Source: Kutzneria buriramensis (lineage in GTDB: Bacteria > Actinomycetota > Actinomycetes > Mycobacteriales > Pseudonocardiaceae). From it: a DNA stretch of 64,000 nucleotides. Below are positions 1 through 14,706 of the stretch, one piece after another. The notes beneath the pieces were generated by a model. It was not told the origin of the DNA, searched no databases, and saw only the letters and a program-made list of their open reading frames with translations. Each line of letters starts with the position of its first letter. The first letter of the stretch is position 1. Location: positions 186,001 through 250,000 of the forward strand of contig NZ_QUNO01000017.1 in NCBI RefSeq assembly GCF_003387475.1, in the 5' to 3' direction. A program made the position numbers and the translations under genes.

Positions 1-501
1 GCCACCATCCCCGGTAACCCACTCGACAAGGCCGACACCCAAGATCAGCAACGGTGGATAGCGGAACTCATCGACCGATTCTCCGTTGATCCTGGCAAGG
101 TTCCACTCAGCGTGGTCAGCGCCCGCCAGGATCGCGTGCTGGTGCTCAGCATCTACCACTTGGCGTCACCCCTACCAGCCTGGCATTCAGGGTCGATGGT
201 GCTGGTCGGCGACGCGGCACACGCAGTTGGGCCGTCCGCCGGCCAGGGCGCCTCAGTCGCCCTGGAGGACGGCGTCATTCTGGCCAAGTGCTTGCGCGAT
301 ATCGGAAACCTCGGCGACGCGTTCTACACGTACCACCAGCTACGAGCCGACCGCCTCCAGCAGCTGCTGGTCCTGACGCAGACACGTGTGAGCAACCTCC
401 ACGAGGCCAAGGCCTACTCCAACCCCAACAGGCGCACCTTCCTGTACGAGCACAAGATTGAGTGGGACGAGCCGATCACCGCCGTCGCCAAGCCGCGATG
501 A
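1..501 (+). CDS. FAD-dependent monooxygenase, C-terminal part (5' truncated by window)
   Basis: The reading frame is open from base 1, and 166 residues are visible. The segment VLVGDAAHAVGPSAGQGASV (about residues 69-88) is the GD motif of class A flavoprotein hydroxylases (PHBH fold, FAD_binding_3), whose Asp contacts the FAD ribityl chain; it is followed by the usual ALEDG helix. These enzymes hydroxylate or epoxidise aromatic or polyketide substrates with NAD(P)H and O2, mostly in the cytoplasm. The Rossmann GxGxxG region lies outside the window, so substrate and total length cannot be judged. The gene ends 259 nt before integrase 1 and reads in the same direction. Confidence 0.8.
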   Translation, partial: ATIPGNPLDKADTQDQQRWIAELIDRFSVDPGKVPLSVVSARQDRVLVLSIYHLASPLPAWHSGSMVLVGDAAHAVGPSAGQGASVALEDGVILAKCLRDIGNLGDAFYTYHQLRADRLQQLLVLTQTRVSNLHEAKAYSNPNRRTFLYEHKIEWDEPITAVAKPR

Positions 502-678
502 GTACCTGCCGCATACGCTGATCCGCCCCCAAAAGGCCATCGCCATGGGGGCGCTACCGCTGGCCACGCTCAGTGCGGTTGACGCACCGGCCCTTGTCGG
601 CCCACCAGCCAGGCACGCCGCGCTAACCAGCAAAACACCGCATGCCCACTCGCGGCTCGTTTCCTGACGGGGCTTGCA

Positions 679-693
679 CGGTGATCGAGTTGC
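679..693 (+). promoter_or_regulatory. Conserved 15-nt box upstream of integrase 1
   Basis: CGGTGATCGAGTTGC lies 67 nt before the integrase start and recurs exactly upstream of integrase 3 (41046-41060) at nearly the same distance. Just after it, TGCACCT and AGGTGCA (691-697 and 708-714) form a small inverted repeat. It could be part of the int promoter or a binding site for an excision or control protein; this is inferred only from conservation and position. The rest of 502-760 shows no gene. Confidence 0.45.
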
Positions 694-760
694 ACCTACC
701 GGGATCAAGGTGCACTACGGGGTCTGTTCACACAGCCGTCCGCAGACCCGGGAGGACGTC

Positions 761-2182
761 ATGGCATGGGTCGAGAAAACGGGTAAGAACAGCTGGCGAG
801 TCCGCTACCCCAAAAAGACCGGCGGAACCGGCTCCATGTCCGGATTCCGCACCAAGAAAGCCGCCGACGCCTACGCCAACGACCTCGAGACCGACCAGCG
901 CCGCGGCATCTGGATCGACCCCACCGACTCCCGCATCACCGTCGCCGACTGGACCGCGCAGTGGTTCCCCACCCTGGACGTCGATCCCCGCACCATCGAC
1001 AACTACCGCAGCTACCTCACCAACCACATCCTGCCCCACTGGGGCACCAGCAGCCTCGGCGAGATCACCGCCCTCGACGTCACCGCATGGATCAAACAAC
1101 TCCGCCACCACCTCGCAGCCTCCACCGTCAACTGCGTCGTCTGCGTATTCGCCATGCTCATGGACGACGCCGTCGACCAACACCTCATCCCCGCCAACCC
1201 CGTCCGCCGACGCCCCCGCCGCGGACGCCGCTGCAACCGACCACACCCACCCACCGAACGCGTCTGGACCACACCCGAGAAGGTGCTGCGCGCCGCCGAG
1301 CAGGCCGGCATGCTCGGCGGACCCGACGCGAAGCTGTTGGTCATCACCACCGCCTGGACCGGCTGCCGCTGGGGCGAAATGGCCGGACTGCAACCACACA
1401 ACGTCGACCTCATCCGCCGCGTGATCGTCATTGATGACAAGATAGGGGCCCTGCACGAGTCCGCCCACACGCTCTGGCTCGGCCCACCCAAAACACCGTC
1501 CTCAGCGCGCACCATTCCACTACCACCGTTCCTGGTCGAACTCCTGCGCGAGCACCTCGCCCGACACACGGGCCAGTTCGTTTTCACCAGCCCACTCGGC
1601 TATCCCCTGCGGCGCAGCGACTTCCACCGCCGCGTGTTCCGCCCCGCCGTCGACGGCAACCGAGACCACCCCAACGCCAGCATCCACACCGAACCCGTCC
1701 AACCAGGACTGACCTTCCACGGACTACGGCACAGCCACAAAACCTGGATGATCACCGACGGCATCCCTGAAATCGCGCAAGCCAAACGACTCGGCCACCA
1801 CCTGTCCAACCGACTCGTCGAAACCTACAGCCACGTCGCCCCCGAAATCGAAACCCGCCTCCTACGCGGACTCGAACAACGCTGGCACAACGCCACCCAC
1901 ACCCGACGCCCCACCGACAACCGACCCCGTCGCAGCTCGGCAGCCGGTGCACACCACACGCGTCCGGCGCGGCGCAGCACCCCGCGCACAAACAGCACAC
2001 ACAGCCGGCCCCTGCTCACCACGACGAAGAACCCAGCCGTGACAAGCATTCGGGAGGCCTGCGTCCTCCCGAATTCCTCCACCATGATGCAACCCAGCGA
2101 TCACCGCCCGCACCAGGTCGCGATCATTGCTCGCATAAGAAAAGCCCTCCGACCAGGTAAGACCTGGATCGAAAGGCTTTAA
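761..2182 (+). CDS. int: Tyrosine site-specific integrase 1
   Basis: This 473-residue integrase is expected to catalyse recombination between the element's attP and the tRNA-Ala gene. An N-terminal AP2/SAM-like arm-binding region (MAWVEKTGKNSWRVRY) precedes a core-binding domain (about 60-155) and the catalytic domain (about 170-370). The catalytic residues are visible: R203 in GCRWGE, K244, H320-xx-R323 in HGLRHSHKTW, H346 in GHHLSN and nucleophile Y356 in ETYSHV. The ATG at 761 is chosen because GGGAGG lies 6 nt before it and the other two integrases start at the same MAW; longer upstream starts give non-homologous sequence. The Arg/Pro/Thr-rich tail after residue 375 is variable. The stop codon lies inside the terminator hairpin next to the attachment core. 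Confidence 0.95.
   Translation: MAWVEKTGKNSWRVRYPKKTGGTGSMSGFRTKKAADAYANDLETDQRRGIWIDPTDSRITVADWTAQWFPTLDVDPRTIDNYRSYLTNHILPHWGTSSLGEITALDVTAWIKQLRHHLAASTVNCVVCVFAMLMDDAVDQHLIPANPVRRRPRRGRRCNRPHPPTERVWTTPEKVLRAAEQAGMLGGPDAKLLVITTAWTGCRWGEMAGLQPHNVDLIRRVIVIDDKIGALHESAHTLWLGPPKTPSSARTIPLPPFLVELLREHLARHTGQFVFTSPLGYPLRRSDFHRRVFRPAVDGNRDHPNASIHTEPVQPGLTFHGLRHSHKTWMITDGIPEIAQAKRLGHHLSNRLVETYSHVAPEIETRLLRGLEQRWHNATHTRRPTDNRPRRSSAAGAHHTRPARRSTPRTNSTHSRPLLTTTKNPAVTSIREACVLPNSSTMMQPSDHRPHQVAIIARIRKALRPGKTWIERL
2135..2180 (-). terminator. Intrinsic terminator downstream of orphan tRNA-Ala 3' half (element A)
   Basis: On the minus strand an imperfect stem (plus arms 2141-2158 and 2162-2180) is followed by GGGCTTTTCTTAT. 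It sits 10 nt beyond the tRNA 3' end, where a tRNA terminator would be. It overlaps the 3' end of integrase 1. Confidence 0.7.
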
Positions 2183-2190
2183 TCAAATTG

Positions 2191-2232
2191 TGGAGCTGAG
2201 GGGACTCGAACCCCTGACCCTCACACTGCCAG
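2191..2232 (-). repeat. att: Attachment-site core: orphan 3' half of tRNA-Ala (A/B junction)
   Basis: These 42 bases are identical to 42639-42680, the 3' part of the intact tRNA-Ala(GGC), from position 32 in the anticodon loop through the T-arm to discriminator A73. Identity stops sharply in the anticodon loop (the next plus-strand bases are CGCGACC instead of TGTGATG), so this is not a functional tRNA. It is the expected att core left by integration into the tRNA 3' half. Confidence 0.9.
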
Positions 2233-2494
2233 CGCGACCACAGTAGACAGCGCCTCCGACCTGCAGAAACAGAGAATCGCCACGTCAAACCCGTTGCAGT
2301 CACTGCACTTGAGCGCCGTACAGTACGGTTCAATGTGGTGATCTCATCAAGATCCGTACGTCGAGAGCTAAACAGACGCACCCAAGCCTGACAGGCAGAT
2401 AGATCGTCAACGGGCTAATGACCCTGGCAGAAGGCCGGGGAGCCCTTGGTAGGACTGGATTTGCGAAGATCAAGTCCGAGCCAGAAGGCTCCCC

Positions 2495-3283
2495 GTGATC
2501 ACCTATCGTGCCACACTCGACGTCCCCCACGATCTCGCCCGCTACCTCGGCCACCTGCTGCGCGCCGAACGCCGCCGACGCGGCACCCGCACCCACGCCA
2601 GAGCCCTGACCTGCTTCTGGCAGGCAGTACTCGGGCTGCGCTGGTTCCGTCACAACACCGACGTCACCACGCCGGCCCGCGACCACGGCATCGCCCGCGC
2701 CACCGCCTACCGCTACCTCGACGAGATCATCACCGTGCTCGCCGACCACGCCCCGAACCTGCACGACGCCCTACGACACGCCAAAAACCAGGGCGCGACC
2801 CACGTCATCCTCGACGGCAAGATCTTCCCCGCCGACCGCTACGGCGAGCCCGCCCTCAGCAAAAAACACACGGTCATCGACCGCTGGTACTCCGGCAAAG
2901 CCCACCGCCACGGCGGCAACATCCAAGCCCTGACAGCGCCGAACGGTTTCCCGCTCTGGGTCAGCGACGTCGAACCCGGCTCGGTCAACGACATGCTCTC
3001 AGCACGCAAACATGTTCTCGGCGCCTTGTACTGGGCCGCGTCCCAACTCGGACTGCCCACCCTGGCCGACGCCGGTTACGTCACCGCCGGCATCGGCGTA
3101 TTCACCCCGGTCAAGCACCTCGGCGACGGCCACGCGCTCGCGGTCGACAACCGCACCTACGACACCCTGCTCCGCGGTCTGCGCTGCCTGGGCGAACGCG
3201 GCTTCGCCCTACTGACCGGACGCTGGCGGGCCCTACGTCATATCACCGCTAGCCCGCGCAAGATCGGCGACATCGTCAAAGCC
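2495..3283 (+). pseudogene. IS5-type (DDE_4) transposase, 3' truncated
   Basis: The product has the layout of IS5-group/HARBI1-like transposases: a winged-helix N-terminus (about 1-85, ARATAYRYLDEI), then the DDE domain with VILDGKIFPAD (first Asp), the GGNIQAL strand and ADAGYV (second Asp). Homology runs to ITASPRKIGDIVKAA near 3283. The usual short C-terminus (LVLT.FE..) is replaced by unrelated sequence up to a stop at 3499, and no right terminal inverted repeat is seen. The 3' end of the IS has therefore been lost, probably by a later rearrangement. The start is GTG at 2495. The left IS end probably lies near 2440-2460 but is not resolved. Confidence 0.75.
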
Positions 3284-3655
3284 GCAGGTTCAACACACAT
3301 CCCTGCTCCAGTTTTGCTCCAGACGATCCAGTGTGAAGACCCGGGACCCAGCCGCACATCCGTTGCGCCACAGGGTCCTCCGACCACAGCATCGAAGCGA
3401 CCCGCGATGTCGAGCGTGGCGCCGAAGCGGCGGTCGCCACCAGGCCAAACGGGCCGAGAACAATGCGGGCGAAAGTGTCGAAGTCGCAGGCGTCCGTAGT
3501 AGCCGGCGGCGGGCTCACGGCCCTGGCGGTGCGGTGTGATCGACGATGGGTGGAACCCATGCGCCCGGCTTTCCCATGGCCGCGTTGAAGGACCGCAGTA
3601 GCGTCGTCGGCCCCGAAGATCTCAGCTGCGGACCCGTCAGGTTGGAGCAGTGACG
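3284..3655. other. Non-coding or remnant stretch between IS fragment and exporter gene
   Basis: This holds the read-through tail of the truncated transposase frame (to 3499) and sequence downstream of the MFS gene. Frames are open on both strands, but none resembles a family I recognise. No clear hairpin terminator was found. Confidence 0.4.
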
Positions 3656-4897
3656 TTATCCAGCTGTTTCGGTGGCTCGCAGGGATCGAGCCAACGGACC
3701 CGTGCTGAAGGAGAAGACGGAGGCAGCAATGAAGATGACTCCCGCCAGAGCCATGGCCCAGCTCGCGCCGAGGACTTGGGTGATGCCGCCGGCTACGGCG
3801 TAGCCCAGGACAGTTGCCGCCGCGAAGACGACGCCCATGAAGCTGTACAGCCGGCCGCGGAGATCGTCCTCGATGGCTTCCGCGAACAGGAGCTGAGTCA
3901 GGACCTCCTCCGGGCCGTAGGACAGACCCCAGACAAACCACAGAACACAGAAGACGACATAGCCGGGGCTCAGCGGCATCACCAGGTTGACCACGCCGTA
4001 GACGAGGCCGCTGCCGAGCAGCCAGCCGCGGCGCCGGCGGTGGAAGTTCAGATGGCCGCACACGAGACTGCCGATGATGCTGCCGACCGCGTAGCAGGTC
4101 ACCGCGACGCCATACTGCAAACTCGACACGCCTAGCGTGTCGCGCAGATAGGGGATGGCGGCAAGCAGTGCGATCGGGAGTGCGGCCAGGCTGATCCCCC
4201 AATACAGGAACAGGCGCGAGGCCGTCACGCTGGCACGGGTCGCGCGCAGGCCATCGCGAATGCTGGCAAGGACCGAACTGCTCACCGCCTGCGCCCGTCG
4301 CTCACGCCACTGCGGGTCGAAATGCCGGATGCTACTGAGCGCTGCGGCGATGACGAGAAACGAGCCGGCGTCGACGAGAACGGCGTGGCGGGCCCCGATC
4401 AGGCCGGTCAACGCCCCGCCGAGCGCCGGTCCGATGGCTTGGGCGGTGAACATCAGGCCGGTGCGGCGGCCGATCAGCCGCTGGTAACCGTCGCCGGCCA
4501 GCGCAGGGAGCGCAGCTTGCACAGCCGGTCCGCTCACGGTTCCCACAACCTGCGCGAGAACCGCGCAGGTGACCACCACGGCGAGCGGGCCACTGAACGC
4601 AAGGCCCGCGAGCAGCGCAGCGGACAGAATGTAGGAACCGACCGCGAGTGCGTGCCGGTTGGTGCGGTCGGCGAGTGCCCCTGCGAACGGCGCCAGCATC
4701 AGCTGGGGAAGAGCCAGAGCGATGAAGACAGCGGCGGTGCCGGAAACACTGCCGGACGTTCCGTAGACGAACAGCGGTATGGCGATCTCGGTCACTCCGG
4801 TGCCGATCGCGCTGACCGTCATGCCCGCCAGCAGGACGGCCTCGCTGCGCCCGCTCAGACCGCCCTGAGGCGGGTCCGCGGTGGTCTCGGTGCTCAC
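3656..4897 (-). CDS. MFS transporter, probable exporter of the RiPP product
   Basis: This is a 413-residue major-facilitator protein with about 12 hydrophobic segments. The signature GALADRTNRHALAVGSY (about residues 77-93) matches the loop 2-3 motif A of drug and siderophore exporters (MFS_3/EntS-like). The start is GTG at 4897, 26 nt after the stop of the upstream YcaO gene and behind a GGAG site, so the two form an operon with the precursor gene at 7273-7374. As the only transporter in the cluster it most likely exports the modified peptide and gives self-resistance (inference). It ends in a short Arg-containing cytoplasmic tail. Confidence 0.85.
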   Translation of the reverse strand: MSTETTADPPQGGLSGRSEAVLLAGMTVSAIGTGVTEIAIPLFVYGTSGSVSGTAAVFIALALPQLMLAPFAGALADRTNRHALAVGSYILSAALLAGLAFSGPLAVVVTCAVLAQVVGTVSGPAVQAALPALAGDGYQRLIGRRTGLMFTAQAIGPALGGALTGLIGARHAVLVDAGSFLVIAAALSSIRHFDPQWRERRAQAVSSSVLASIRDGLRATRASVTASRLFLYWGISLAALPIALLAAIPYLRDTLGVSSLQYGVAVTCYAVGSIIGSLVCGHLNFHRRRRGWLLGSGLVYGVVNLVMPLSPGYVVFCVLWFVWGLSYGPEEVLTQLLFAEAIEDDLRGRLYSFMGVVFAAATVLGYAVAGGITQVLGASWAMALAGVIFIAASVFSFSTGPLARSLRATETAG

Positions 4898-4923
4898 GTG
4901 GAGATCTCCATGATCAGTATGCC

Positions 4924-7131
4924 TCAGGCGTGCGGGAGAGGGACGTAGTTCAGGTCTTCTTCGGCCAGCGGGGTCGTTCGCCAGCCCAGGTGCACAGCCT
5001 CGTCCTGGATCCTGCGGTTACCCAGGAACGGGAATGCCGCAGGCGCGTTGGGCGCGAGGCCAGGAATCAGCACCCGCACCACACGCATACCGGTTGCCCG
5101 CACGTCCGGCGTGGTGACATCCACATGAATTACTTCCAAGCCGTGGCTGTGGAGGATATCGAGGTAGGTGGAGAGTCGCCGATCCGGAAGGCGAGGCAGA
5201 TCGTCCAACGCGCGAGTTGCCGGCACGTCGGTCCAGGAGCGGACCAAGTCGTGTGCCCGGGGGTCCAGGTGAACCTGCTGCTGAGCCATGAGGTCGTTGC
5301 AATCACGGAAGTCGCCGCGGTAGACGTCCAAGTAGCGGCGGTCGGCTCGGTAGGGCTTCATGACCTCCGCGAGCTCTCCCCGGCGCACCGCCTGAGCGTA
5401 CCTGCTGTCCTCAACCAGCAGGTCACGGCTGCCGTCCTGCAGCGTGAGAGCTTCGGTCCACGCCTTCATGACGGCCTGTTCGGGGTCGGGCCGACACGCG
5501 AACCCGATGTTGAACAGCTGCAGCTCGGGATGCTCCACAAGACCGGCGATGACGGGAATGCCGAAGCGGTTGTCCAAATGGACTGCCCAGGCCTTCTGAG
5601 CGGGAGAATTCTGCCACAGCAAGGTCAGCTCGGGCGAGGGGATGATGCCTGGCAGCGGCTGGCGGTTGTGCCACCACACCATCGTCGCATCGCGCTCGAC
5701 GATCTCCTCGATCGCGTTCACCATGGCCGACTCGATGTCCATGCCAGCCGATATTCCCGGATAGGACATCAGGTTCGTCTTCGGGGCGTCGGCGTACTTC
5801 CCGGTGTACCAGTTGACATAGACGAGGCTCGCCGGAACCCACACGTCACGGTCCCGGGTCACTGAGTGTCCCTTCACCCAGTGAGTGTCCAGATCATGGG
5901 TGAATTTGACGAAGGGAAAACCGCGTGCTGCGTACTGCTGATCGGAATAGAGGACGACTCGATTCGGATCAAGTGCCACGTCGCCTGACTTGACGATCTC
6001 GAAATATGACGCCGCCCGAATGCTGTCGTCCTGCACCCAGTTTGCACAGTAGCGTTCGACCGCTTCGCCGATAGCTGCCCCGCGCGCAGATTTGCTGTCA
6101 TTGAATGCACTGCCCTGACAGACGGTGTTGTTCGCGAAAGAGTACAGCCGCTTCATCTGAGCGACATCCGACTGAACTGTGTGCAAGATAGACGGGATAT
6201 CGGGATGATGCGTGACATTCCGGGTCCGTAGCACGATGCCCGTCTCGGCGTCGATCAAGGATCGCTCGTCGAACGCGGCCGCGCCACCGCCCGTCTTATG
6301 CGGGAGAGGGAGGACAGGGTGCGGCGTCACGGTCAGGCTGATGGGATCCAGCGTGACCACGCCGCCGACCAGCGGGGTGGGAACTCCGCGAACCCAGCGT
6401 TCAGCCATGGTCAGGAAGGTGGAGATCATCCAGGCGGTCTCGCCGACCGGTGGTCGACTGCAGGCAAGAGTCGGGTTCTGCCGCTGCGCCTGGTACACCG
6501 TGGGGTCAGGTGAGGTCGTGAGCCGTCGGCCGGTGACGTCCTCCCAGGTCATCTCCGTCATGCCGGGCGCGATGACAGGACCACACCACGCCTTCCCTTG
6601 TTCGAGGTGCAAATGCACTGCCGGCAGGCCTTGCTCGACACAAGCGCGTTCAAAGTCGGAGATGACGTCATCCGAGCACTCGCCGAACAGTCCAACGACG
6701 ACAGCTCTGGCCGAGCTCTTCTCGCGGCCGTGGGCCAGGCCGTCCCAAACCTCGACCGAAGGGATCGATAGCTGGCTAGCCATGGCGACAAGTTCTTGAT
6801 CGCCAGTGATCAGCAGGCGCGGCGAGCGCTGGTCCTCTGCCGACGGGAAGCGCGACCGGTGCCAACTCCGCGCAGATGGTTCTGATCGTGTGAGCACGCC
6901 GGCGCCGAGGAGTTCCTCGATGATTTCGTCGAGATCTGCGGGTGTCCCGTCGCCGCTTCGATCTCCCGCCTCCAGCCCCGTCAGGTATTTCGCCACGACC
7001 TCGGCAGATCCTGCTATGCGATATTTGACCCCAGTCGGCGTGGTTAGCAGGCACGCGTCATCAGCGAGAGGGCGCACATCCGCATCGACAAAGAATATCT
7101 GGCCCGCTTCAGCTTCAGTTGGCGCTACCAT
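4924..7131 (-). CDS. E1-like leader-binding / YcaO cyclodehydratase fusion protein
   Basis: This 735-residue protein would use ATP to modify backbone amides of a ribosomal peptide (azoline, thioamide or amidine chemistry). The N-terminal third (about 1-300) resembles the TOMM leader-binding E1-like partner: FFVDADVRPLADDACLL, then TGVKYRI and an acidic helix. The C-terminal half is a YcaO domain. Its ATP/Mg motifs are visible as FNDSKSARGAAIGEAVERY (about 342-360) and ESAMVNAIEEIVERDATMVW (about 463-482). The C-terminus NYVPLPHA is a short version of the proline-rich end of cyclodehydratases. ATG 7131 is preferred because GAGGG lies 5 nt before it; GTG 7137 is an alternative, while the open frame back to 7197 lacks a good site. 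It lies between the precursor and exporter genes. No flavin dehydrogenase or protease gene follows, so azoline rather than azole, or a different YcaO product, is possible. Confidence 0.88.
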   Translation of the reverse strand: MVAPTEAEAGQIFFVDADVRPLADDACLLTTPTGVKYRIAGSAEVVAKYLTGLEAGDRSGDGTPADLDEIIEELLGAGVLTRSEPSARSWHRSRFPSAEDQRSPRLLITGDQELVAMASQLSIPSVEVWDGLAHGREKSSARAVVVGLFGECSDDVISDFERACVEQGLPAVHLHLEQGKAWCGPVIAPGMTEMTWEDVTGRRLTTSPDPTVYQAQRQNPTLACSRPPVGETAWMISTFLTMAERWVRGVPTPLVGGVVTLDPISLTVTPHPVLPLPHKTGGGAAAFDERSLIDAETGIVLRTRNVTHHPDIPSILHTVQSDVAQMKRLYSFANNTVCQGSAFNDSKSARGAAIGEAVERYCANWVQDDSIRAASYFEIVKSGDVALDPNRVVLYSDQQYAARGFPFVKFTHDLDTHWVKGHSVTRDRDVWVPASLVYVNWYTGKYADAPKTNLMSYPGISAGMDIESAMVNAIEEIVERDATMVWWHNRQPLPGIIPSPELTLLWQNSPAQKAWAVHLDNRFGIPVIAGLVEHPELQLFNIGFACRPDPEQAVMKAWTEALTLQDGSRDLLVEDSRYAQAVRRGELAEVMKPYRADRRYLDVYRGDFRDCNDLMAQQQVHLDPRAHDLVRSWTDVPATRALDDLPRLPDRRLSTYLDILHSHGLEVIHVDVTTPDVRATGMRVVRVLIPGLAPNAPAAFPFLGNRRIQDEAVHLGWRTTPLAEEDLNYVPLPHA

Positions 7132-7171
7132 GCTCACCCTCACCGTTGTGTTTGCGAAAAACGAGCGTCGA

Positions 7172-7222
7172 GAACCCCGCGGCTGCGCGGACTGCAAGAG
7201 ACGCCTGCGATCCCCGGGGTTC
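7172..7222 (-). terminator. Candidate attenuator hairpin between precursor and YcaO genes
   Basis: On the minus strand GAACCCCG (plus 7215-7222) and CGGGGTTC (plus 7172-7179) can pair around a GC-rich loop that itself folds, followed by CGACGCTCGTTTTTCGC. A leaky terminator here would let the precursor be made in excess of its enzyme, as is common in RiPP operons. This is a reading by eye, without folding energies. Confidence 0.4.
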
Positions 7223-7272
7223 CCGACAGCTAACTAGCGACTCCTCAGAGAATCAACTCCGAGTGTCCGCAA

Positions 7273-7374
7273 TCAGAAATCCCAGCTGAACGTGGCCGCC
7301 GGCGTCGGGTGGTGGTTCCCGTTCGGCGCCAGGATCTCGTTGGTCAGCTCTGCGGTCTCGATCTTCTCGATCAT
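7273..7374 (-). CDS. Candidate RiPP precursor peptide (33 aa)
   Basis: A short gene reads into the YcaO operon and starts ATG ATC GAG AAG, behind GGAG with a 5-nt gap (ATGGAGATGACATG). The 33-residue product has an acidic, helix-forming N-terminus (MIEKIETAELTNEILAP), typical of a leader, and a C-terminal part NHHPTPAATFSWDF rich in Pro, His and aromatics. The C-terminal part has no cysteine; Thr24, Thr28 and Ser30 are the only azoline-competent residues. Its stop is 141 nt before the YcaO start. Support comes from position, strand, a good ribosome site and leader-like composition; I recognise no family. The cleavage site and the modification are unknown. Confidence 0.7.
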   Translation of the reverse strand: MIEKIETAELTNEILAPNGNHHPTPAATFSWDF

Positions 7375-7698
7375 GTCATCTCCATGTGCTCATAGTTTGA
7401 CAGAACAGCTGATGTCCGATCTTTGAGCAACCCAAATTCGGGCAACCGAAAGAACGGGTATCATCCCAGAGTTCGTGACCGTCCAACATCGTCAGACAGC
7501 GGGCAAATCCCCCCGTTTTCACGAATCCCTAGTTGCTCACCGAATGCGATCGGCTGACTTTCAAATTCAAGCAGACACGCGATGGGTCGTCAAGCATCCG
7601 CCTGAACGGTGACCGAGAAAATCAATCCGCCCCTCCTGGCTGGCCGCACGGTTGTGCAACTGAGTCTTTTCTTCAGTTGCACAACCGTGAATCCCGAA
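7375..7698. promoter_or_regulatory. Promoter region of RiPP operon; 17-bp perfect inverted repeat at 7647-7689
   Basis: This region between the StrR-like gene and the precursor gene is visibly more AT-rich than its flanks (7380-7600). At 7647-7663 and 7673-7689 it carries two perfect 17-bp arms (CACGGTTGTGCAACTGA and its complement) around a 9-nt loop, starting 10 nt beyond the regulator stop. There is no T-tract, so it may be an I-shaped terminator of the regulator gene. An operator for the StrR-like protein, whose family binds long inverted repeats, is the alternative. No gene is visible here. Confidence 0.5.
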
Positions 7699-8688
7699 TC
7701 AGGCGGTGGCGCTCGTGGAGTCGGCGAGCTCCTCGGCTAGCCGCCGCCAGCTGTCGGCATAGCGCCGTGCGACCTCGGAGACGACCTCGGCGCAATGCGG
7801 CGGCACACTGCCGACAACGGTCTGCCACTCGCGCTCCTCGATGCGGTGTGCCATGAGCCAGCGCAGAAGCGATCGGCCGGTCTCCGTCAGCCGCAGCGAC
7901 GGATCCCGCTGCAGTTCGCCGAGTACCACAGGCAGGTCCTTGCAGCCGCCGGTCGACACGCTACTGGTCCGGGGGCGGCCGACCCGTATGGACCGGCCGC
8001 CCGCGGACTCCTCGCTCATCTGCGCACGCACCCGCCGCACGGTATTGGGCGAGATCCCGGCCGCCTTGGCGACTTCGCGCAGCGACGCGTTCGGGGACTC
8101 GGCGAGGATTCGCTGGGCGGCCTGCCGACCTTCAGCGCCACTCACCATCCGCCGCCGCCCGTCCAGGCCGATCCGTACGTCAGTCTGAGATGCACCGGCC
8201 GAGGTGCGGTTACGGATCGCGCCGATGGTCTTCGGCGACAATCCCGCAGTGGCCGCAATCGCCCGGTCCGACATCGCCGGACAGGCCGCGATGATGCGCT
8301 CCGCGGCGGCCTGCCGGTCAGCGAGCGTCAGCGGCAGGCCGTGGGTTGTGTTCGCCTCGACCGCCAGCAACAGCGCCGCGGTCTCATCACCGTCGAAGAA
8401 AACGACGTCGACGGTGCTGTCCCCACGCAGCATGGCAGCGTGCAGCCGGTGCATCCCATCGACGACACGCATGGTCTCGCGGTGCACACAGATCGGCGGC
8501 AGGTTCCCGTCCATCTGGGCGAGCAACTGCACGTGCTCCGCGTCCACACCGGCCGACCGCAGCGAATCCGCCGGCCGCAGAGCATCGATGGCGACCTCAG
8601 TGATCCTCGTCGACTGGACGACCGACGCCAGATCGACCACTTTTCGGTTCCCGTCAGCCACCACGGGCTGCGAACGATATTCGAACAA
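7699..8688 (-). CDS. StrR-like (ParB-domain) pathway regulator
   Basis: This 329-residue DNA-binding protein has an N-terminal ParB/Srx-like domain: IDALRPADSLRSAGVDAEHV, then LPPICVHRETMRVVDGMHRL, ending with the GLPLTLADR helix entry (about residues 30-145). Two helix-turn-helix segments follow (MSDRAIAATAGLSPKTIGAI and ASLREVAKAAGISPNTVRRV). This order is that of StrR, NovG and related activators of antibiotic clusters in actinomycetes. TTG 8688 is used because GGGGG lies about 5 nt upstream; a downstream GTG is possible. It reads in the same direction as the precursor-YcaO-MFS operon and probably controls it. The hairpin after the gene could be its terminator or its target. Confidence 0.85.
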   Translation of the reverse strand: MFEYRSQPVVADGNRKVVDLASVVQSTRITEVAIDALRPADSLRSAGVDAEHVQLLAQMDGNLPPICVHRETMRVVDGMHRLHAAMLRGDSTVDVVFFDGDETAALLLAVEANTTHGLPLTLADRQAAAERIIAACPAMSDRAIAATAGLSPKTIGAIRNRTSAGASQTDVRIGLDGRRRMVSGAEGRQAAQRILAESPNASLREVAKAAGISPNTVRRVRAQMSEESAGGRSIRVGRPRTSSVSTGGCKDLPVVLGELQRDPSLRLTETGRSLLRWLMAHRIEEREWQTVVGSVPPHCAEVVSEVARRYADSWRRLAEELADSTSATA

Positions 8689-9051
8689 AACATCCCCCAG
8701 ATGCCGTACGTAAGCCGTGCACTCGCGCCGGCGGACATCAGTTGAAGACTGCCCGCCAGCGCTACCGGCACGACATCTACCGTCTACTCTAGTAAGGTCC
8801 GGGCGACAATCACAGCGTTATCGAGTGCCGCGATCACGGCAGCACGCTCCCCTCTGGCGTGCTATCGCGTCCCACATTTTCGACACCTCATCCTTGTTTC
8901 GCAACACCAGGCTTTCGGGGCGGACTACTCGCTCGGTATCGGTCGACTACTCGACACCCGAGACACCACCAAGATCACCACAGCCACTACATGTGGTGAC
9001 CATTTTCGCCGTCGACTAATTCTACCAACGGTGACGGCCTAACCTAGGGAC
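8689..9051. promoter_or_regulatory. Divergent promoter region, regulator / serine hydrolase
   Basis: No gene is seen in this 363-nt divergent gap. TAACCT at 9040-9045 followed 6 nt later by ATG looks like the -10 of a leaderless actinobacterial promoter for the serine hydrolase. No convincing -35 or operator repeat was found. Confidence 0.4.
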
Positions 9052-10356
9052 ATGTCGTCACCCATGATTGATACCGCGCGCGTCGAGGACGTACTCGACC
9101 AGCACCTGCGCGGCCAGGTGCCTGGAGCCGCCCTGGCCCTGACCCACGCCGGTGAACCATTGTTTACCAGGTGCTTCGGCCTCGCGGACCTGGCGCGACG
9201 GCAGCCGGTGCAGCCAACGACCGTGTTCCGACTGGCCTCGGTGACCAAGCCCTTCACCGCCCTGGTCATCATGCTGCTGGAACGGGATGGATTGCTCGAC
9301 GTGGACGCTCCGATCCGCGACTACCTGCCAGGTTATCCGGCGCACGCCGCGCGGGTTACAGTCCGACACCTGCTGACCCACACATCGGGAATCCCCAATT
9401 ACATCGCTCAGCCCAGCTACGCCGAAATTATATCGGACAGCCGCCGCACCGACGCCGATCTGCTAGCCTGCTTCGCCGATCGGGAGTTGGATTTCGAACC
9501 AGGCTCGCGCTACGGATACAGTAACTCCGGCTACCGCCTGCTGGACATGATCGCCGAACATGTCACAGGCACGCCCTTCGGCGCGATTCTGGCCGAACGT
9601 GTCTTCACCCCAGCCAAAATGCACCATTCCTACCTGGTGAATCACACCTCCACCACGACGGATCACGCGCGCGGCTACATTGGCGACTCCGACAACTTCA
9701 GCGAGGCGGCCTACTTCAACATCGCCCTGACCGGCGGAGCCGGCCGAATCGGATCCACGCTGGCGGACTTGCTCCGGTTCGACCGGGCGCTGCGCACGGA
9801 ATCGATCGCCGACGCCGACCTACAGTGTCGCCTGTTCAGCCCGGTCCAACTCACCACGGGACGACGGGAGGGGTACGGCCTCGGATGGCGGCTGGGCACC
9901 TACCGTGGCCACCGGCTGATCTACCACGGCGGCGGCATTCCCGGTTACACCAGCCTCTACGTGCGACTGCCCGACGATGACCTCGGCATCGTCCTGTTGA
10001 CCAACCTGGGACGGTTCCCCTGCACGAACTTCGCGCGACGGCTGATCGACGCCGCTCTCGACCAACCGCCGGTGCTACGGTGCGCGATCCCGCTGCCGCA
10101 ATCCACTGTGGACGCGCGCGCTGGGGTCTACGCCGACACGGACTATCGGCTCGACATCACTGCCGAATCGGGGCTCCTGATCGTCTCCTTCCTCGGCCGC
10201 CGTCACCGCATGGCGCCCGTCGATCAGACAACCTATGTCGCACAGGACGATCCCGACATAACCCTCACGTTCCACGACGGTGGGCCCGAACGCGCCTGTA
10301 CCCTGAACTACCCGCTGTGGTGGTGCACCGTCTACCGGCTTACACAGGTCCGCTGA
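9052..10356 (+). CDS. Serine hydrolase of the class C beta-lactamase / DD-peptidase fold
   Basis: This 434-residue protein has the three PBP-like active-site motifs. S63-V-T-K66 holds the nucleophile and general base; Y156-S157-N158 is the second motif; H292-G-G-G is the KTG-equivalent third motif. The family includes D-aminopeptidases, esterases and DD-carboxypeptidases, so the substrate is open. No signal peptide is visible at the chosen start, which suggests a cytoplasmic enzyme. ATG 9052 fits a leaderless transcript; ATG 9064 is the alternative. A hydrophobic C-terminal beta-strand domain (about 345-434) follows the catalytic part. Its position next to the RiPP locus allows a role in peptide maturation or immunity, but nothing in the sequence proves this. 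Confidence 0.85.
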   Translation: MSSPMIDTARVEDVLDQHLRGQVPGAALALTHAGEPLFTRCFGLADLARRQPVQPTTVFRLASVTKPFTALVIMLLERDGLLDVDAPIRDYLPGYPAHAARVTVRHLLTHTSGIPNYIAQPSYAEIISDSRRTDADLLACFADRELDFEPGSRYGYSNSGYRLLDMIAEHVTGTPFGAILAERVFTPAKMHHSYLVNHTSTTTDHARGYIGDSDNFSEAAYFNIALTGGAGRIGSTLADLLRFDRALRTESIADADLQCRLFSPVQLTTGRREGYGLGWRLGTYRGHRLIYHGGGIPGYTSLYVRLPDDDLGIVLLTNLGRFPCTNFARRLIDAALDQPPVLRCAIPLPQSTVDARAGVYADTDYRLDITAESGLLIVSFLGRRHRMAPVDQTTYVAQDDPDITLTFHDGGPERACTLNYPLWWCTVYRLTQVR

Positions 10357-10436
10357 GGACTCCTCAATCCGGACGTCGTGCGCTACGCTGCCCCGGAATC
10401 CATCAATTGCGGATATTGTCCCTGGGGGGATAGGTC

Positions 10437-10625
10437 ATGAAGCGTTCAGTACTGGGCGGCCTGGTGATCGCCGCCGCCGTCGCCGTGCTCGCCGTCGGCG
10501 TGAGCGGAACGAGCAGCGTCGCGGCCCCGGATCTGCACCGGTCGGTGAACAGCTACGTCGCCACCACGTACCAGCCGAACGCCGGTACCCACATCGAGGA
10601 ACCAGCGCTGGGCGGACACCACTGA
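10437..10625 (+). CDS. Small secreted peptide of unknown function (62 aa)
   Basis: The ATG sits 6 nt behind GGGGGGA, a strong ribosome site. The first 30 residues form a classic Sec signal peptide: KR, a hydrophobic run of Gly, Val, Ile, Ala and Leu, then a cleavage region ending SSVAA. The mature part would be about 32 residues, starting PDLHRSVNSYVATTYQ and ending in GGHH, with no cysteine. I do not recognise a family. It lies 80 nt after the serine hydrolase gene and converges with the AfsR-like regulator, so a signalling peptide, a toxin for the nearby SdpAB-like proteins, or an unrelated exported peptide are all possible. Confidence 0.7.
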   Translation: MKRSVLGGLVIAAAVAVLAVGVSGTSSVAAPDLHRSVNSYVATTYQPNAGTHIEEPALGGHH

Positions 10626-10635
10626 ACCGGAGCGG

Positions 10636-10680
10636 AGGTGTCCTTCCTCGATCGCCCGCAGCGTTCGAGGAAGGACACTT
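10636..10680. terminator. Bidirectional hairpin terminator
   Basis: Arms 10636-10651 and 10665-10680 pair over 16 positions with one G-T pair around a 13-nt loop. It lies between the convergent small-peptide and AfsR-like genes. Confidence 0.75.
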
Positions 10681-10683
10681 CCG

Positions 10684-13600
10684 TCAGTCCGACCTGATGG
10701 CGATCCGACAGCGCACGCAGTCTGCGTTTGAGTCCGTCAGGGAGTCGAGATGGCGGCGCGCGTAATCGGCGTCGATCATGCCGTCCGGGTATGACTCGAG
10801 CGCCTGTGTCCAGTGCGATTGCGCCTGTTCCAGTCGCTGTCGCGTCCAGGCGATGTGCGCGAGCCCTTCGTATGATCGCGCGACGTGGCGGGCGAAGCCG
10901 TACTTGAGCGAGTACTCCTGGGCCCGCTCGAAAATCTCGCCGGCCTTCTCGAGATCGCCCGTGCTGAACATCGCTTCGCCGAGCGTATTCAGGATTTCGC
11001 ATTCGCTCTTGCGGATGCCGATACGCCGGGCCAGGGCCAGCGCCTGCCGGCCGTTGTCCAACGCGCTCTCTAAGTTCCCCAATGCCCGGCCGGTATAGCA
11101 CAGGCCGAGCAGCGACGTCATCGTGCCGGTCTCGAAACTGGCCCGCCGGCTGGCCTCGCCCACCTGCTCGAACGTCCGCTCGGCTTGCCGGTGCTGCCCC
11201 TGAAAATGCAGTACCATACCAATATTCCACAGCTTCAGGGTGGTGCGGCGAGGAAATTCACCGTTGGCCTTTTCGATCTCCAGCGCGCGCCGGCCGAGAG
11301 TCGCCGCCTCCTCGAAGCGGCCGAGATCCCGGCAGATCACGCCCAGATTGTTGGCGATCACGGCGTTCAGACTCGTACTGCGGCCCCGCGCGAGAATCTC
11401 CTCAGCGAGGCGGTACGTTTCGTAGGCCTTCTGCAGCTGATCGTCTGTGTGATACATGAATCCGAGGTCGGTAAGCTGCGCGGCCTCCCGATAGGTGTCG
11501 CCGGTCCGGCGGCTCAGCGCGAGAGCGCGCTCGATGTATCTGCGGGCCTCGGCGGTCGAACCGCGCTGCCGGCAGGCAGCGGCGATGACATGCAGGCATA
11601 CGGACTGGCCGTTCAGGTCGTTGTCGGCCTCGGCGGCCCGCAATCCCTTTTCCAACAGAGCACGTGTGTTTCCTGCGTAGTTGCGCGACTTCAGGTACGG
11701 ATGCAGGGCACCGACGAGCTGCCAGCAGAGCCGGTGCCAGCCGTCGTCGGCAGCAAGATGGGCGACGGCACGAATATTGGCGTACTCCACGTCCAGCAGC
11801 CTCATCGCCTCATCGCTGGAATATGCGGTCTTCACGTGGTTCGGCTCGTAGTCGCTGCCCGGCACCTTCTGCTCGACGTCCGTGGACCGCGGGCCGTCGC
11901 CCTTGAGATGCTTACCCCAGGTGTCGGCCGACTGGAGGTAGTAGCTCAGGAGCCGCCCCTCGGCCGCCCGCCGATCCTCCTCACTGTCGAGCCCCGTGCA
12001 CAGCTCGTTCGCGCAGTCCCGAACCAGGTCGTGGAAGTAGTACCGGCCGACAGTGTCCTGACGGACCAGGTTGTCGTCGAGCAGTGTCTCCAGGAACACC
12101 TCGGCTTCGTCCAGCGGGAGACCGGCCAGTGCAGCTGCGGCGTACGCGTCGAAATCGGGCCCCGGGTGGAGGCCAAGCAGCCGGAACAGCCGGTACTGCT
12201 GGTCAGACAGGTAGCGGCAGGACAGTCGGAGCGCGGACATCACGCCGCGGTCGCCGGTCTGCAGGAACCGCTTGCGTCGGGCCTGGCTGTCCAGACGCTC
12301 GACGAGATCGGCGACAAGCCAGCCCTGTCGATCGCGCAGCCGGGCTGCGGCGATCCGGATCGCCAGCGGCAGCCGCCCGCACAGCTCGACTGCCGTCGCC
12401 ACCGCCTCCGGTTCCGCAGCGGCTCGGTCCTCGCCGATGATCTGGGTAAATAGCGTCCTGGCGTCGTCGATCGGGAGGACGTCCAGGGACAGCGGGACTA
12501 TGCCCTCCAGCGCGGTCAGCCGCCGCCGGCTCGTGACGATCACCAGGATGCCTGGTGTGCCAGGCAGCAGCGGCCGGATCTGCGCGGCGTCCAGTGCGTT
12601 GTCGAGAATGATGACGGCCCGCTTGCCCGCCATGCGCGAGCGCCAGTGGGCCAGCCGGTTGTCCAGGTCGGCCGGCACGCTCTCCACCGGCACGCCGCAG
12701 GCGCGCAGCAGCGTGTCGAGCGCCTGCTCCGATGTGACCGGCTCGACTCCGAGGCTGAAGCCGTGTAGATCGATGAAGTACTGGCCGTCCGGGAAGTCCT
12801 GAGCGATTCTATGGGCGAGATGGACCGCAAGCGTGGTCTTGCCGACCCCACCCATGCCGTCGATGGCCGAGATCACGAGGGCGGTGGGGAGGGTGGACTT
12901 CGCCTCCGACACCAGCTGGACCAACTCGGTGGCGCGGCCGGAGAAGTCCCTCGTGTCACGAGGCAGGAGACACCGCCCCGCCACCTCCTCAACCGAAGAC
13001 GCCTCATTCGGCTCCTCGCGCGTGGGGCTGTCCACCGGAAGCGAGCCCGGCCCTGACACGACCGCCTCGGCGGTGCCATTGAGAATGGCCGACTGCACAG
13101 CACGAAGCTGCGGACCGGGATCAAGTCCCAGCTCTTCTGCCATCAGCCGTCGACCTCGGTCGTATACATCGAGCGCGTCGGCCTGACGTCCGCTCAGGTG
13201 CAGCGCCAGCATCAACGTGCCGCGCAGCGACTCACGCAGTGGGTGTTCAGCGACGAGGCCGCGCAGTTCGCCGACGATCGCATTGGCCTCGCCCGCGCGC
13301 AGCCGTAGGGACGCGAGATCCTCCACTGCCGTCAGCCGCTGTTCCTGGAGGCTCGTAGCCGCGATGTCGATGGACGGGCTGCGTAGTCCGGACAACACGT
13401 CTCCGCGCCACATCGCCAGCGCCGCCCGAAGGTGGGTGATCGCGGCGTCCACTCGGCCGTGCGATTCGGCGATCTTGGCCTCGCGAATTCGCCGGCCGAA
13501 CTCCTCCCGGTCGACCGACGACGCCGAGGCATCCAGCCGATATCCGGCCTCGGTTGTCGTCACTCGCACGTCCTCAGCGGATGCGGCGAAATTCCGGCGA

Positions 13601-13803
13601 AGGCTGCCGACTGCGTTGTGCACCTGCTGCCGCACCGAGTCGGGCGGCGTGTCCCACAGCTCGTCCACAAGGTGCTCGAACGTCACGACCCGATTCAGGT
13701 TAAGGAGCAGCAGGGCCAGCAGTTTGCGTTGTCGGGTGCCGACGACCCGTATCGGATGTCCTTGGCTCCTCGCCTCCAGAGGACCCAGAATCAGGAACTC
13801 CAC
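10684..13803 (-). CDS. AfsR/SARP-family transcriptional regulator with NB-ARC and TPR domains
   Basis: This 1039-residue regulator has an N-terminal OmpR-like winged helix (MEFLILGPLEARSQG...RKLLALLLL), a BTAD domain (about 95-245), an NB-ARC ATPase with Walker A GGVGKTTLAVHLAH (about 315-330) and Walker B VIILDNA, and a C-terminal TPR array (about 680-1030). Proteins of this layout (AfsR) activate secondary-metabolite genes in response to ATP and phosphorylation. GTG 13803 is chosen because GGGGGGAGA precedes it and the SARP fold begins there; extending to 13977 adds an Arg-rich leader unlike the family. The gene is divergent from the sdpA-like operon, a likely target, and converges with the small secreted peptide gene. 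Confidence 0.9.
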   Translation of the reverse strand: MEFLILGPLEARSQGHPIRVVGTRQRKLLALLLLNLNRVVTFEHLVDELWDTPPDSVRQQVHNAVGSLRRNFAASAEDVRVTTTEAGYRLDASASSVDREEFGRRIREAKIAESHGRVDAAITHLRAALAMWRGDVLSGLRSPSIDIAATSLQEQRLTAVEDLASLRLRAGEANAIVGELRGLVAEHPLRESLRGTLMLALHLSGRQADALDVYDRGRRLMAEELGLDPGPQLRAVQSAILNGTAEAVVSGPGSLPVDSPTREEPNEASSVEEVAGRCLLPRDTRDFSGRATELVQLVSEAKSTLPTALVISAIDGMGGVGKTTLAVHLAHRIAQDFPDGQYFIDLHGFSLGVEPVTSEQALDTLLRACGVPVESVPADLDNRLAHWRSRMAGKRAVIILDNALDAAQIRPLLPGTPGILVIVTSRRRLTALEGIVPLSLDVLPIDDARTLFTQIIGEDRAAAEPEAVATAVELCGRLPLAIRIAAARLRDRQGWLVADLVERLDSQARRKRFLQTGDRGVMSALRLSCRYLSDQQYRLFRLLGLHPGPDFDAYAAAALAGLPLDEAEVFLETLLDDNLVRQDTVGRYYFHDLVRDCANELCTGLDSEEDRRAAEGRLLSYYLQSADTWGKHLKGDGPRSTDVEQKVPGSDYEPNHVKTAYSSDEAMRLLDVEYANIRAVAHLAADDGWHRLCWQLVGALHPYLKSRNYAGNTRALLEKGLRAAEADNDLNGQSVCLHVIAAACRQRGSTAEARRYIERALALSRRTGDTYREAAQLTDLGFMYHTDDQLQKAYETYRLAEEILARGRSTSLNAVIANNLGVICRDLGRFEEAATLGRRALEIEKANGEFPRRTTLKLWNIGMVLHFQGQHRQAERTFEQVGEASRRASFETGTMTSLLGLCYTGRALGNLESALDNGRQALALARRIGIRKSECEILNTLGEAMFSTGDLEKAGEIFERAQEYSLKYGFARHVARSYEGLAHIAWTRQRLEQAQSHWTQALESYPDGMIDADYARRHLDSLTDSNADCVRCRIAIRSD

Positions 13804-14097
13804 ACGATCTCTCCCCCCACGTTCAGCCTGGCTGACCCGCCAGCGACGGGCTGTCCGCCGCCCCGAGCCGGCGGACAATGGCACAAACGACCAGTGCCGA
13901 ACAGCGACGAACGTATGTGACTCGCGCCACTCTTGCCGCCGCGACGGAGGCCATTCGTGCGATAGGGACTCAACCAAGGCTATCAGAGCAGTCCTCAGGT
14001 GGGCCCAGAGTAGCGAAGACCGAACCGGGCGATCCGCTTGACCGATCCGTCCGCATGGGGGAGTGTGTGGCCTGAAGGCAATGTGGGGGCTACGATC

Positions 14098-14706
14098 GTG
14101 CGAATCGGCAAGATGGGATCATCGGGATCGCCGGCTGTCGTCGGTTACGAAAATGAGCATGCCCGTCGCGGGTTCGGGCTGACACTCACGATCCTTCTTG
14201 TCAGCCTGCTGATATCCATGCTGGCCCAGTGGGGCGGCGGCATCGCGCCGGATCTGGTCGGAGACCACCTCGGCGCTTATGCCGTGATCTGGCCACAGGG
14301 CTGGTCGTTTTTCACTGATCTCAGCGGAAAGAATGTCCTCACGGCCTATCGAGTGAGTCCGGACGGCATGCGTCTCACCCTCGAGACACAACGCCAGGAG
14401 TGGTCCGACTTCACCTGGGGGCTCGACCGGGCCGGCGATTCTGCGGCTTTCGAGATAACGCAGCTGGCCCAGGAGGTTCCCGACCGATACTGGCGGGCCT
14501 GTGAGGCTGCGAATCCCGCGGAATGCGGCCCGTTTCTACCAACATCGTCAAACCTCGCCCTGACGAACTCGTCGACGACGCCGACCCTGTGCGGGCCTAC
14601 GGTGATCGCCATCGATCGGCCGAACTTTCCGCCTTCGGGAGACCTACCGACCTCGCCGCGTCGCGTCGCGCGGGTCGCACTGGTGAATCTGACATGCGCA
14701 AGGTGA
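14098..14706 (+). CDS. sdpA: SdpA-family antimicrobial-peptide maturation protein
   Basis: The product is about 202 residues. It has an N-terminal membrane anchor (GFGLTLTILLVSLLISMLAQ) followed by VIWPQGWSFFTDLSGKN, which matches the PQGWxFFT signature of SdpA, a protein needed with SdpB to mature the SdpC toxin in Bacillus subtilis. The remainder would face the outside and contains cysteine pairs (RACEAANPAECGPF). GTG 14098 is preferred because GGGGG lies 8 nt upstream; TTG 14038 and ATG 14113 are alternatives. The 3' end overlaps the sdpB-like start by 13 nt, which implies translational coupling. It is divergent from the AfsR-type regulator. No SdpC-like toxin gene is adjacent. Confidence 0.8.
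   Translation: MRIGKMGSSGSPAVVGYENEHARRGFGLTLTILLVSLLISMLAQWGGGIAPDLVGDHLGAYAVIWPQGWSFFTDLSGKNVLTAYRVSPDGMRLTLETQRQEWSDFTWGLDRAGDSAAFEITQLAQEVPDRYWRACEAANPAECGPFLPTSSNLALTNSSTTPTLCGPTVIAIDRPNFPPSGDLPTSPRRVARVALVNLTCAR

Follow-up and report, generated by a model that had tools for sequence, protein, structure and literature searches.

A minimal mobilisin-type YcaO peptide operon in Kutzneria buriramensis with a possible streptamidine-like amidine product

A 64,000-nucleotide stretch of the Kutzneria buriramensis genome (GCF_003387475.1, contig NZ_QUNO01000017.1, positions 186,001 to 250,000; hereafter the window) was found to carry, on the minus strand, a 33-codon gene and the gene of a fused YcaO enzyme, which together are a genuine small peptide-natural-product cluster. 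The 33-amino-acid (aa) peptide is very likely the precursor and substrate of the fused enzyme, judging from related short genes at homologous loci. The window is a minimal member of a wide bacterial orphan family, of a mobilisin-type kind already glimpsed in 2015 (PMC4603692), whose peptides carry a His/Asn cluster and, as a rule, a Phe-x-Trp end in place of the Cys/Ser/Thr that YcaO enzymes commonly modify. At about even odds (probability roughly 0.5), the locus is a minimal mobilisin-type operon for a ribosomally synthesized and post-translationally modified peptide (RiPP), whose enzyme would form an amidine in the manner of streptamidine; by analogy, a streptamidine-like amidine is our best guess for the product.

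In transcription order, the minus strand between 3656 and 8688 carries a regulator gene (8688-7699), the 33-codon gene (7374-7273), the YcaO gene and a major facilitator superfamily (MFS) gene. An earlier interpretation made from the letters alone (the sequence-only reading) had proposed a YcaO RiPP cluster with a 33-codon gene and a clear ribosome site, and both proposals stood. The central features were as follows.

7273..7374, minus strand: precursor peptide gene, 33 aa, ending NHHPTPAATFSWDF (sequence; kin peptides at 48 other enzyme-clade loci)
7380..7383, minus strand: ribosome-binding site GGAG, 5 nt 5' of the peptide ATG (sequence)
4924..7131, minus strand: fused enzyme of 735 aa with RiPP recognition element (RRE), E1-like and YcaO parts (NCBIfam, Pfam, AlphaFold pLDDT 89.5, Foldseek LynD/TruD/MusD)
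6904..7080, minus strand: putative RRE-like N-terminal part, residues 18-76 (model secondary structure and full-length LynD match)
4927..6246, minus strand: YcaO domain, residues 296-735 (PF02624, E 1.9e-58)

The full 33-residue peptide, MIEKIETAELTNEILAPNGNHHPTPAATFSWDF, starts with ATG. It has no Cys, and Thr24, Thr28 and Ser30 were confirmed as previously noted; Thr7 and Thr11 lie in the leader.

Related precursor peptides at homologous loci

Relatives of the enzyme were collected from the host family (390 genomes, 54 with E ≤ 1e-60), from the host class (394 genomes, 35 relatives) and by a one-genome-per-species contig scan with an 8-sequence alignment, which gave 345 relatives, the best 80 of which were used. 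With the window enzyme alone as query, the genome contig scan confirmed no relatives, and searching the families of two relatives (22 genomes at E ≤ 1e-120; 35 genomes at E ≤ 1e-165) yielded no additional fused enzymes. Loci are cited below by number (L).

When short open reading frames (ORFs) up to 1.8 kb before YcaO were filtered only for F-x-[WFY] near the C-terminus, an Asn/His-motif peptide could be observed in 35 of the best 80 of 345 loci. All 35 had a start/ribosome-site score of at least 3.5, and the 15 other ORFs passing the filter were motif-free with scores of 2.5 or less. Examples are LAPSHNHSSIAPVFTWND (Streptomyces sp. NRRL B-1347), LAPNSNHHGHVATSFAWS (Microbacterium testaceum), VPHCHHGTTPQTFAWK (Mobiluncus mulieris) and APHNHAVQAAVFGWN (Microlunatus parietis). 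The usual signature could be written as (A/V)P-x0-2-[NHC][HN][HN]-x6-F-x-W, which in the window reads AP-NG-NHH-x6-FSW. Variants included I-x-W ends (L110, L113, L132) and peptides that kept the Asn/His part without F-x-W (L140, L158 from Cutibacterium avidum, L170 and L180). The acidic leader described in the sequence-only reading is not a family trait, the leaders of L108 and L171 being basic.

A regular expression for the peptides, composed after the family had been inspected, matched 38 of 127 short ORFs with good ribosome sites in the 1.8 kb before YcaO (best 80 of 345 loci), compared with 2/698 elsewhere on the YcaO strand and 0/1000 on the opposite strand. The two same-strand matches were the L136 peptide, just past the 1.8-kb limit, and one spurious hit. 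Five F-x-W peptides run against both NCBIfam and Pfam gave no match, and the peptides of L047, L112, L172 and L178 gave none in NCBIfam. A profile of the new peptides, searched against 3,717 short ORFs from 40 standalone-type loci, detected L172 (E 0.008) and, more weakly, L173, L174 and L183.

Position of the enzyme among YcaO proteins

A tree was built from 134 YcaO domains with a Lactiplantibacillus plasmid enzyme adjoining a SagB dehydrogenase as outgroup, leaving out duplicates (L077, L079, L126, L141, L155, L160, L164 and L181) and sequences shorter than 380 aa. The window enzyme was placed inside a 57-tip clade with a support of 0.939; its position within the clade was weakly supported. 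Less three second copies, the 57 tips represent 54 loci, whose hosts belong to Actinomycetota, Chloroflexota and Acidobacteriota. A related short gene was present at 49 of the 54 loci, and the 33-codon gene is therefore not regarded as a chance ORF. These 49 comprise 43 with F/I-x-W (window counted), 4 with the Asn/His part only and 2 recovered by a wider search, namely L136 with I-V-W at -1.9 kb and L112 with a tandem repeat and A/P-Q-W ends at -2.65 kb. The comparison with homologous YcaO loci, suggested in the sequence-only reading, thus came out in favour of its precursor assignment. The five peptide-free loci (L111, L114, L123, L131, L134) have matches that begin 157-1061 bases from a contig end, and L131 shares its contig and domain score with L139.

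A second YcaO-domain ORF lies beside the first in L112, L113 and L132 (close copies, 48-50% identical to the window domain), and a remote one (25-28%) occurs in L118, L120, L122, L124 and L129. L165, in a record labelled Tissierella, and L145, from Varibaculum cambriense, carry the same peptide, and contamination or mislabelling is likely for the former.

Fused enzyme and partner genes

The longest YcaO ORF spans 4924-7197 on the minus strand with TTG at 7197 as its first start. The true start is more likely ATG 7131, because a better ribosome site (gagggtgagc) precedes it. NCBIfam analysis revealed a SagD-type YcaO domain (TIGR03604, E 6e-86), and an E1-like match to TIGR03882 reached 32.4 bits, under the cut-off of 36.9. 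The AlphaFold model, built from 35 related sequences, had a pLDDT of 89.5 and a pTM of 0.85, and its residues 18-76 show strands and helices ordered as in an RRE. Foldseek returned LynD as the best PDB match (E 3.7e-38, query TM-score 0.64), followed by TruD and MusD (0.58 each), with alignments spanning 700-830 columns. The predicted structure fits a single chain in which a leader-binding part at the N-terminus is joined to an E1-like body and a catalytic domain. The Pro-rich C-terminal tail has P731 and P733 invariant across the 35 sequences. L106, L107 and L108 have YcaO domains with 58% identity to that of the window. Elsewhere in the host genome, five more YcaO matches above the Pfam cut-off occur on contigs C14, C15 and C17, including two close pairs (C17 near 103-106 kb; C14 near 133-136 kb).

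Partner genes were sought by a Pfam scan of 11 window proteins (positions 112-16620), bounded on the left by the window start. Neither a dehydrogenase nor TfuA was detected among these 11 proteins, and a PF00144 serine hydrolase (9052-10356) was the sole protease-like gene. As a leader peptidase the serine hydrolase was rejected: a 29%-identical relative lies 3' of YcaO in L106, yet such a gene occurs in just 2/86 mapped loci.

Conserved residues and the chemistry they allow

Residues were counted by column in 44 peptides carrying [FIV]-x-W, anchored on the F of F-x-W: 37 distinct peptides picked by the regular expression, window included, and 7 added by hand. H/N occurred at -7 in 40/44 and at -8 in 38/44, and H/N/C at -9 in 40/44; these counts are inflated, as the regular expression demanded one such pair, which the F-x-[WFY] filter did not. 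Ser/Thr/Cys reached at most 23/44 in any column from -1 to -10. After the conserved Pro, L119 (Microlunatus parietis) and L163 have no Ser/Thr/Cys at all, and the window has three such residues, none of them Cys; four peptides lack Ser/Thr/Cys from the conserved Pro up to F-x-W.

Two features mark thiazole/oxazole-modified microcins (TOMMs) and linear azol(in)e-containing peptides (LAPs). The first, a YcaO enzyme with an E1-like partner, is present in the window. The second, a core rich in or conserved for Cys/Ser/Thr, is absent, with no conserved site among the 44 peptides. The peptide columns therefore rule out an azoline as the family chemistry, and a conserved azoline site is excluded on this sequence evidence; a single oxazoline in the window peptide alone is possible. 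The sequence-only reading was right that the product would not be a thiazole-rich TOMM and that an amidine is conceivable. Its single methyloxazoline, which may apply to the window peptide, does not hold for the family, in which Ser/Thr/Cys is conserved at no site and is missing altogether after the Pro in two members.

The strongest rival to amidine formation, which we nevertheless consider improbable, is conventional azoline chemistry, in which Thr24, Thr28 or Ser30 would give one or two (methyl)oxazolines that escape oxidation for want of a nearby dehydrogenase. The fold and the E1/YcaO build match azoline-forming enzymes, the tail prolines P731 and P733 are invariant, and Ser/Thr stands immediately before F in 23/44 peptides, the window among them. 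For streptamidine mutants, -18 Da intermediates interpreted as oxazolines are also reported (PMC8442711). Set against this are the missing conserved site and the two members, L119 and L163, devoid of candidate residues after the Pro.

A less likely alternative is a new ring made from the Asn/His side chains of the conserved [NHC][HN][HN] cluster. It would account for the -9 to -7 columns, and the E1-like part also matches MccB, an enzyme acting on Asn; no YcaO precedent is known to us, however, and the cluster may instead function in recognition or metal binding. Still more doubtful is an enzyme that chiefly cleaves the peptide at the expense of ATP, an activity reported in the title of the MusD entry (7u58) in the PDB, giving a plain short peptide. 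MusD is within the three best full-length PDB relatives and no leader peptidase gene was found adjoining the peptide gene, but other clade loci (11 of the 51 mapped) have an S9 peptidase of their own.

Thioamide formation, of which YcaO enzymes are capable with TfuA (PMC8442711), is highly improbable: the TfuA partner that marks thioamidated RiPPs was not among the 11 scanned proteins, which leaves this suggestion of the sequence-only reading unsupported. Equally improbable is a true precursor elsewhere, with the 33-aa ORF encoding a leader peptide or arising by chance; the hairpin 3' of it is attenuator-like, but kin peptides occupy the same place across phyla, the regular expression is specific to that place, and L112 repeats leader and core in tandem.

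Proposed mechanism

In the favoured amidine-forming operon, the RRE part would bind the 33-aa peptide, and the YcaO domain, with the help of ATP, would activate an amide of the backbone within or close to the LAP-N-x-N-H-H stretch. The activated amide would then be attacked by an amine rather than by a Ser/Thr/Cys side chain, giving an amidine with a net change of -18 Da, for which streptamidine is the precedent. The modification site may lie near L15-A16 by the streptamidine register or near N18-H22 by conservation. The peptide would be cut, perhaps by a host peptidase acting after the conserved Pro, and the MFS protein would then export the cleaved product.

7167..7227, minus strand: RNA hairpin between the peptide gene and the YcaO gene, probable attenuator (folding energy)

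The 145-nt spacer between peptide and enzyme genes folds at -64.2 kcal/mol (z -3.08). In the 110 nt 3' of the peptide gene, z was below -2 in 25 of 38 loci (window among them) and above 0 in 4/38, with 60 shuffles for each locus. Such a hairpin probably holds peptide mRNA above enzyme mRNA.

Surroundings of the cluster

3656..4897, minus strand: MFS transporter, probable exporter (PF07690; same peptide-YcaO-MFS order in L039 and L035)
7699..8688, minus strand: probable cluster regulator, ParB-like/helix-turn-helix (weak matches)
7647..7689, minus strand: 17-bp perfect inverted repeat 3' of the regulator gene, probable terminator (repeat search)

The peptide-YcaO-MFS order is repeated in L039 and L035, both of which lie outside the 57-tip clade. 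The regulator matched ParB (TIGR00180) below threshold (21.5 bits vs a cut-off of 58), and its helix-turn-helix matches were weak, a single one (HTH_24) being above its cut-off. No relative was found in the PDB at E ≤ 1. Its description as StrR-like is plausible, and its tie to the peptide cluster is suggested by position. The inverted repeat sits between the regulator and peptide genes and was absent from the list of a simple terminator scan.

A phage-type integrase and an IS5-type transposase (674-2182, 2495-3499) directly follow the MFS gene, which suggests that the cluster lies at the border of a mobile region. At 10684-13977 the window also encodes a 1097-aa AfsR/SARP-type regulator with NB-ARC and TPR parts.

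Other short peptides beside YcaO genes

In Streptomyces (including S. scabiei) and Amycolatopsis, four or five (V/I)HNRAV repeats make up peptides of 39-44 aa whose genes lie directly 5' of a fused YcaO (L143, L144, L148, L149, L152, L157, L159, L160, L161, L162, L164; L074:8371-8490). The repeats have no Cys, their Ser/Thr are confined to the last unit, and the one peptide tested matched no NCBIfam model. The hexapeptide units are reminiscent of the six-residue core of streptamidine. On a Streptomyces plasmid, a 48-aa peptide that contains three VV(D/N)NCVAAY-like repeats lies 5' of a standalone YcaO (L075:7772-7918), whose enzyme clusters with L043, L046 and L065-L068. In Amycolatopsis (L034:8889-13375), peptide and YcaO are followed by three putative molybdenum hydroxylase subunit genes, judged by eye, and then by MFS.

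Neighbour genes across the clade

Genes up to 5 kb away were clustered by single-linkage BLAST, and representatives of each cluster were named by Pfam. Among the 51 clade loci mapped, 37 of them with at least 4.5 kb on each side, ATP-binding cassette (ABC) genes were present in 38 (exporters and importer ATPases pooled), a FecCD-type importer in 26, an S9 peptidase in 11 and the window-type MFS gene in 3. The HNRA-repeat clade had FecCD in 0/12. The FecCD-type importers of other members suggest a metal-scavenging peptide. As for the window itself, FecCD, periplasmic binding protein and S9, each searched with one representative, matched nothing in the 64 kb (E ≤ 1e-4), and the sole match of a CydD representative (26%) was near 58 kb; the window was accordingly rejected as a metallophore cluster.

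Comparison with known systems

The window enzyme resembles LynD, TruD and MusD in its three-part fold along the whole length, and sequence comparison detects them at E 1.5e-23, 6.7e-22 and 2.9e-20, respectively; it differs in having 19-21% identity to them in structural alignments. The substrates of these three enzymes have Cys/Ser/Thr at the modified sites.

For the streptamidine family (AmiA/B/D), whose products are marked by a six-membered amidine, the core is given as HLSATH, and a hydrolase and a dehydrogenase are needed (PMC8442711). As to the relation to STREPTAMIDINE, the streptamidine-type loci hold a standalone YcaO and precursors such as ...QLAHLSATHSNALVENPFD, a type annotated amiA on the Rhodococcus plasmid pNit. 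The window YcaO domain is 33-41% identical to streptamidine-type domains, and a profile built on the N-terminal halves of fused enzymes finds a separate E1-like ORF in 15/25 standalone-YcaO loci (E 1.8e-32 to 2.6e-7), among which L056 and L181 are one locus. Neither group of peptides has a Ser/Thr/Cys-rich core, and when they are aligned from F without gaps, positions -9 to -7 read H-S-N in streptamidine precursors and N-H-H in the window. The pNit locus contains two ABC genes besides an iron permease and an S9 peptidase; its S9 gene (28% to that of L121 across 552 aa) and ABC genes (about 30-35%) are homologous to clade-locus genes, and iron-importer genes also occur in other mobilisin-type members. 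A single peptide, L177, combines NSHNH, ALVENPF and FAW, and is sub-threshold on the streptamidine models (E 6e-4, 0.03). On this sequence-level evidence the window family appears to be kin to streptamidine by its enzyme parts and by accessory genes that other members carry, and less strongly by its peptides. The two differ in that the window enzyme is fused and streptamidine's is separate, and in an MFS exporter versus ABC exporters.

Several observations weigh against the streptamidine-like interpretation. The window peptide gave no match to the streptamidine models NF040714 and NF040715 at E ≤ 10. The two enzymes fall in separate clades whose joint deep nodes are weak, and the models together with the separate clade rule out the window as a member of the streptamidine family. 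An E1 match was found in only 2/11 ALVENPF loci examined and was absent from the Rhodococcus locus, and over the 40 standalone-type loci the new-peptide profile missed the ALVENPF peptides as well as L177 and L178. The hydrolase and dehydrogenase that streptamidine needs (PMC8442711) were not found in the window. Peptides with F/V-x-W are found beyond the clade as well (L047, L035, L039, L154). Codon comparison of the near peptide genes L078/L079/L080 (three only) gave silent:replacement ratios of 4:10, 4:3 and 3:10, with no silent excess.

A wider and more tentative view, which we would place below even odds, is that mobilisins and streptamidines constitute one very large azoline-free YcaO superfamily making amidines or an Asn/His ring. 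The His/Asn cluster would lie nine to seven residues before the Phe, many products would be exported and re-imported metallophores, and the window would be stripped to peptide, enzyme and exporter. Should the products turn out to bind metal, they would represent a new type of ribosomally made metallophore.

Mobilisins were presented by Cox, Doroghazi and Mitchell (2015; PMC4603692) as an orphan predicted TOMM group whose 52 D proteins come mostly from Mobiluncus and Rhodococcus; their clusters contain B, C and D proteins, and a short peptide poor in Cys/Ser/Thr was spotted manually near the fused cyclodehydratase. In Mobiluncus mulieris ATCC 35243 one YcaO gene was found, and since it belongs to the window's clade (support 0.939) the clade matches the mobilisin group. 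The window shares with it the fused E1/YcaO enzyme of the same clade and, as in L150, a short peptide of the composition so described (PMC4603692) beside the enzyme. It differs in that the B protein (dehydrogenase) reported there for mobilisin clusters was not found among the 11 scanned proteins, and the published group includes Rhodococcus (PMC4603692), of which the single locus analysed here is of streptamidine type. The statement in the sequence-only reading that no described family has such a core is thus superseded: the group matches the orphan mobilisins (PMC4603692) and is kin to streptamidine (PMC8442711).

A literature search on mobilisin cyclodehydratases returned PMC4603692 alone, and within titles and abstract openings of the open literature (subscription papers and supplements lying outside this scope) no other description of these peptides was found. 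Relative to the literature searched, the peptide signature, the spread into Chloroflexota and Acidobacteriota, the streptamidine link and the importer context were not found described. For the orphan YcaO group of 2015, this work defines a precursor signature and provides several dozen candidate substrates from named hosts, together with a connection to streptamidine. With one peptide and one fused enzyme in the window, the action of YcaO on a peptide without azoline residues becomes a two-gene question.

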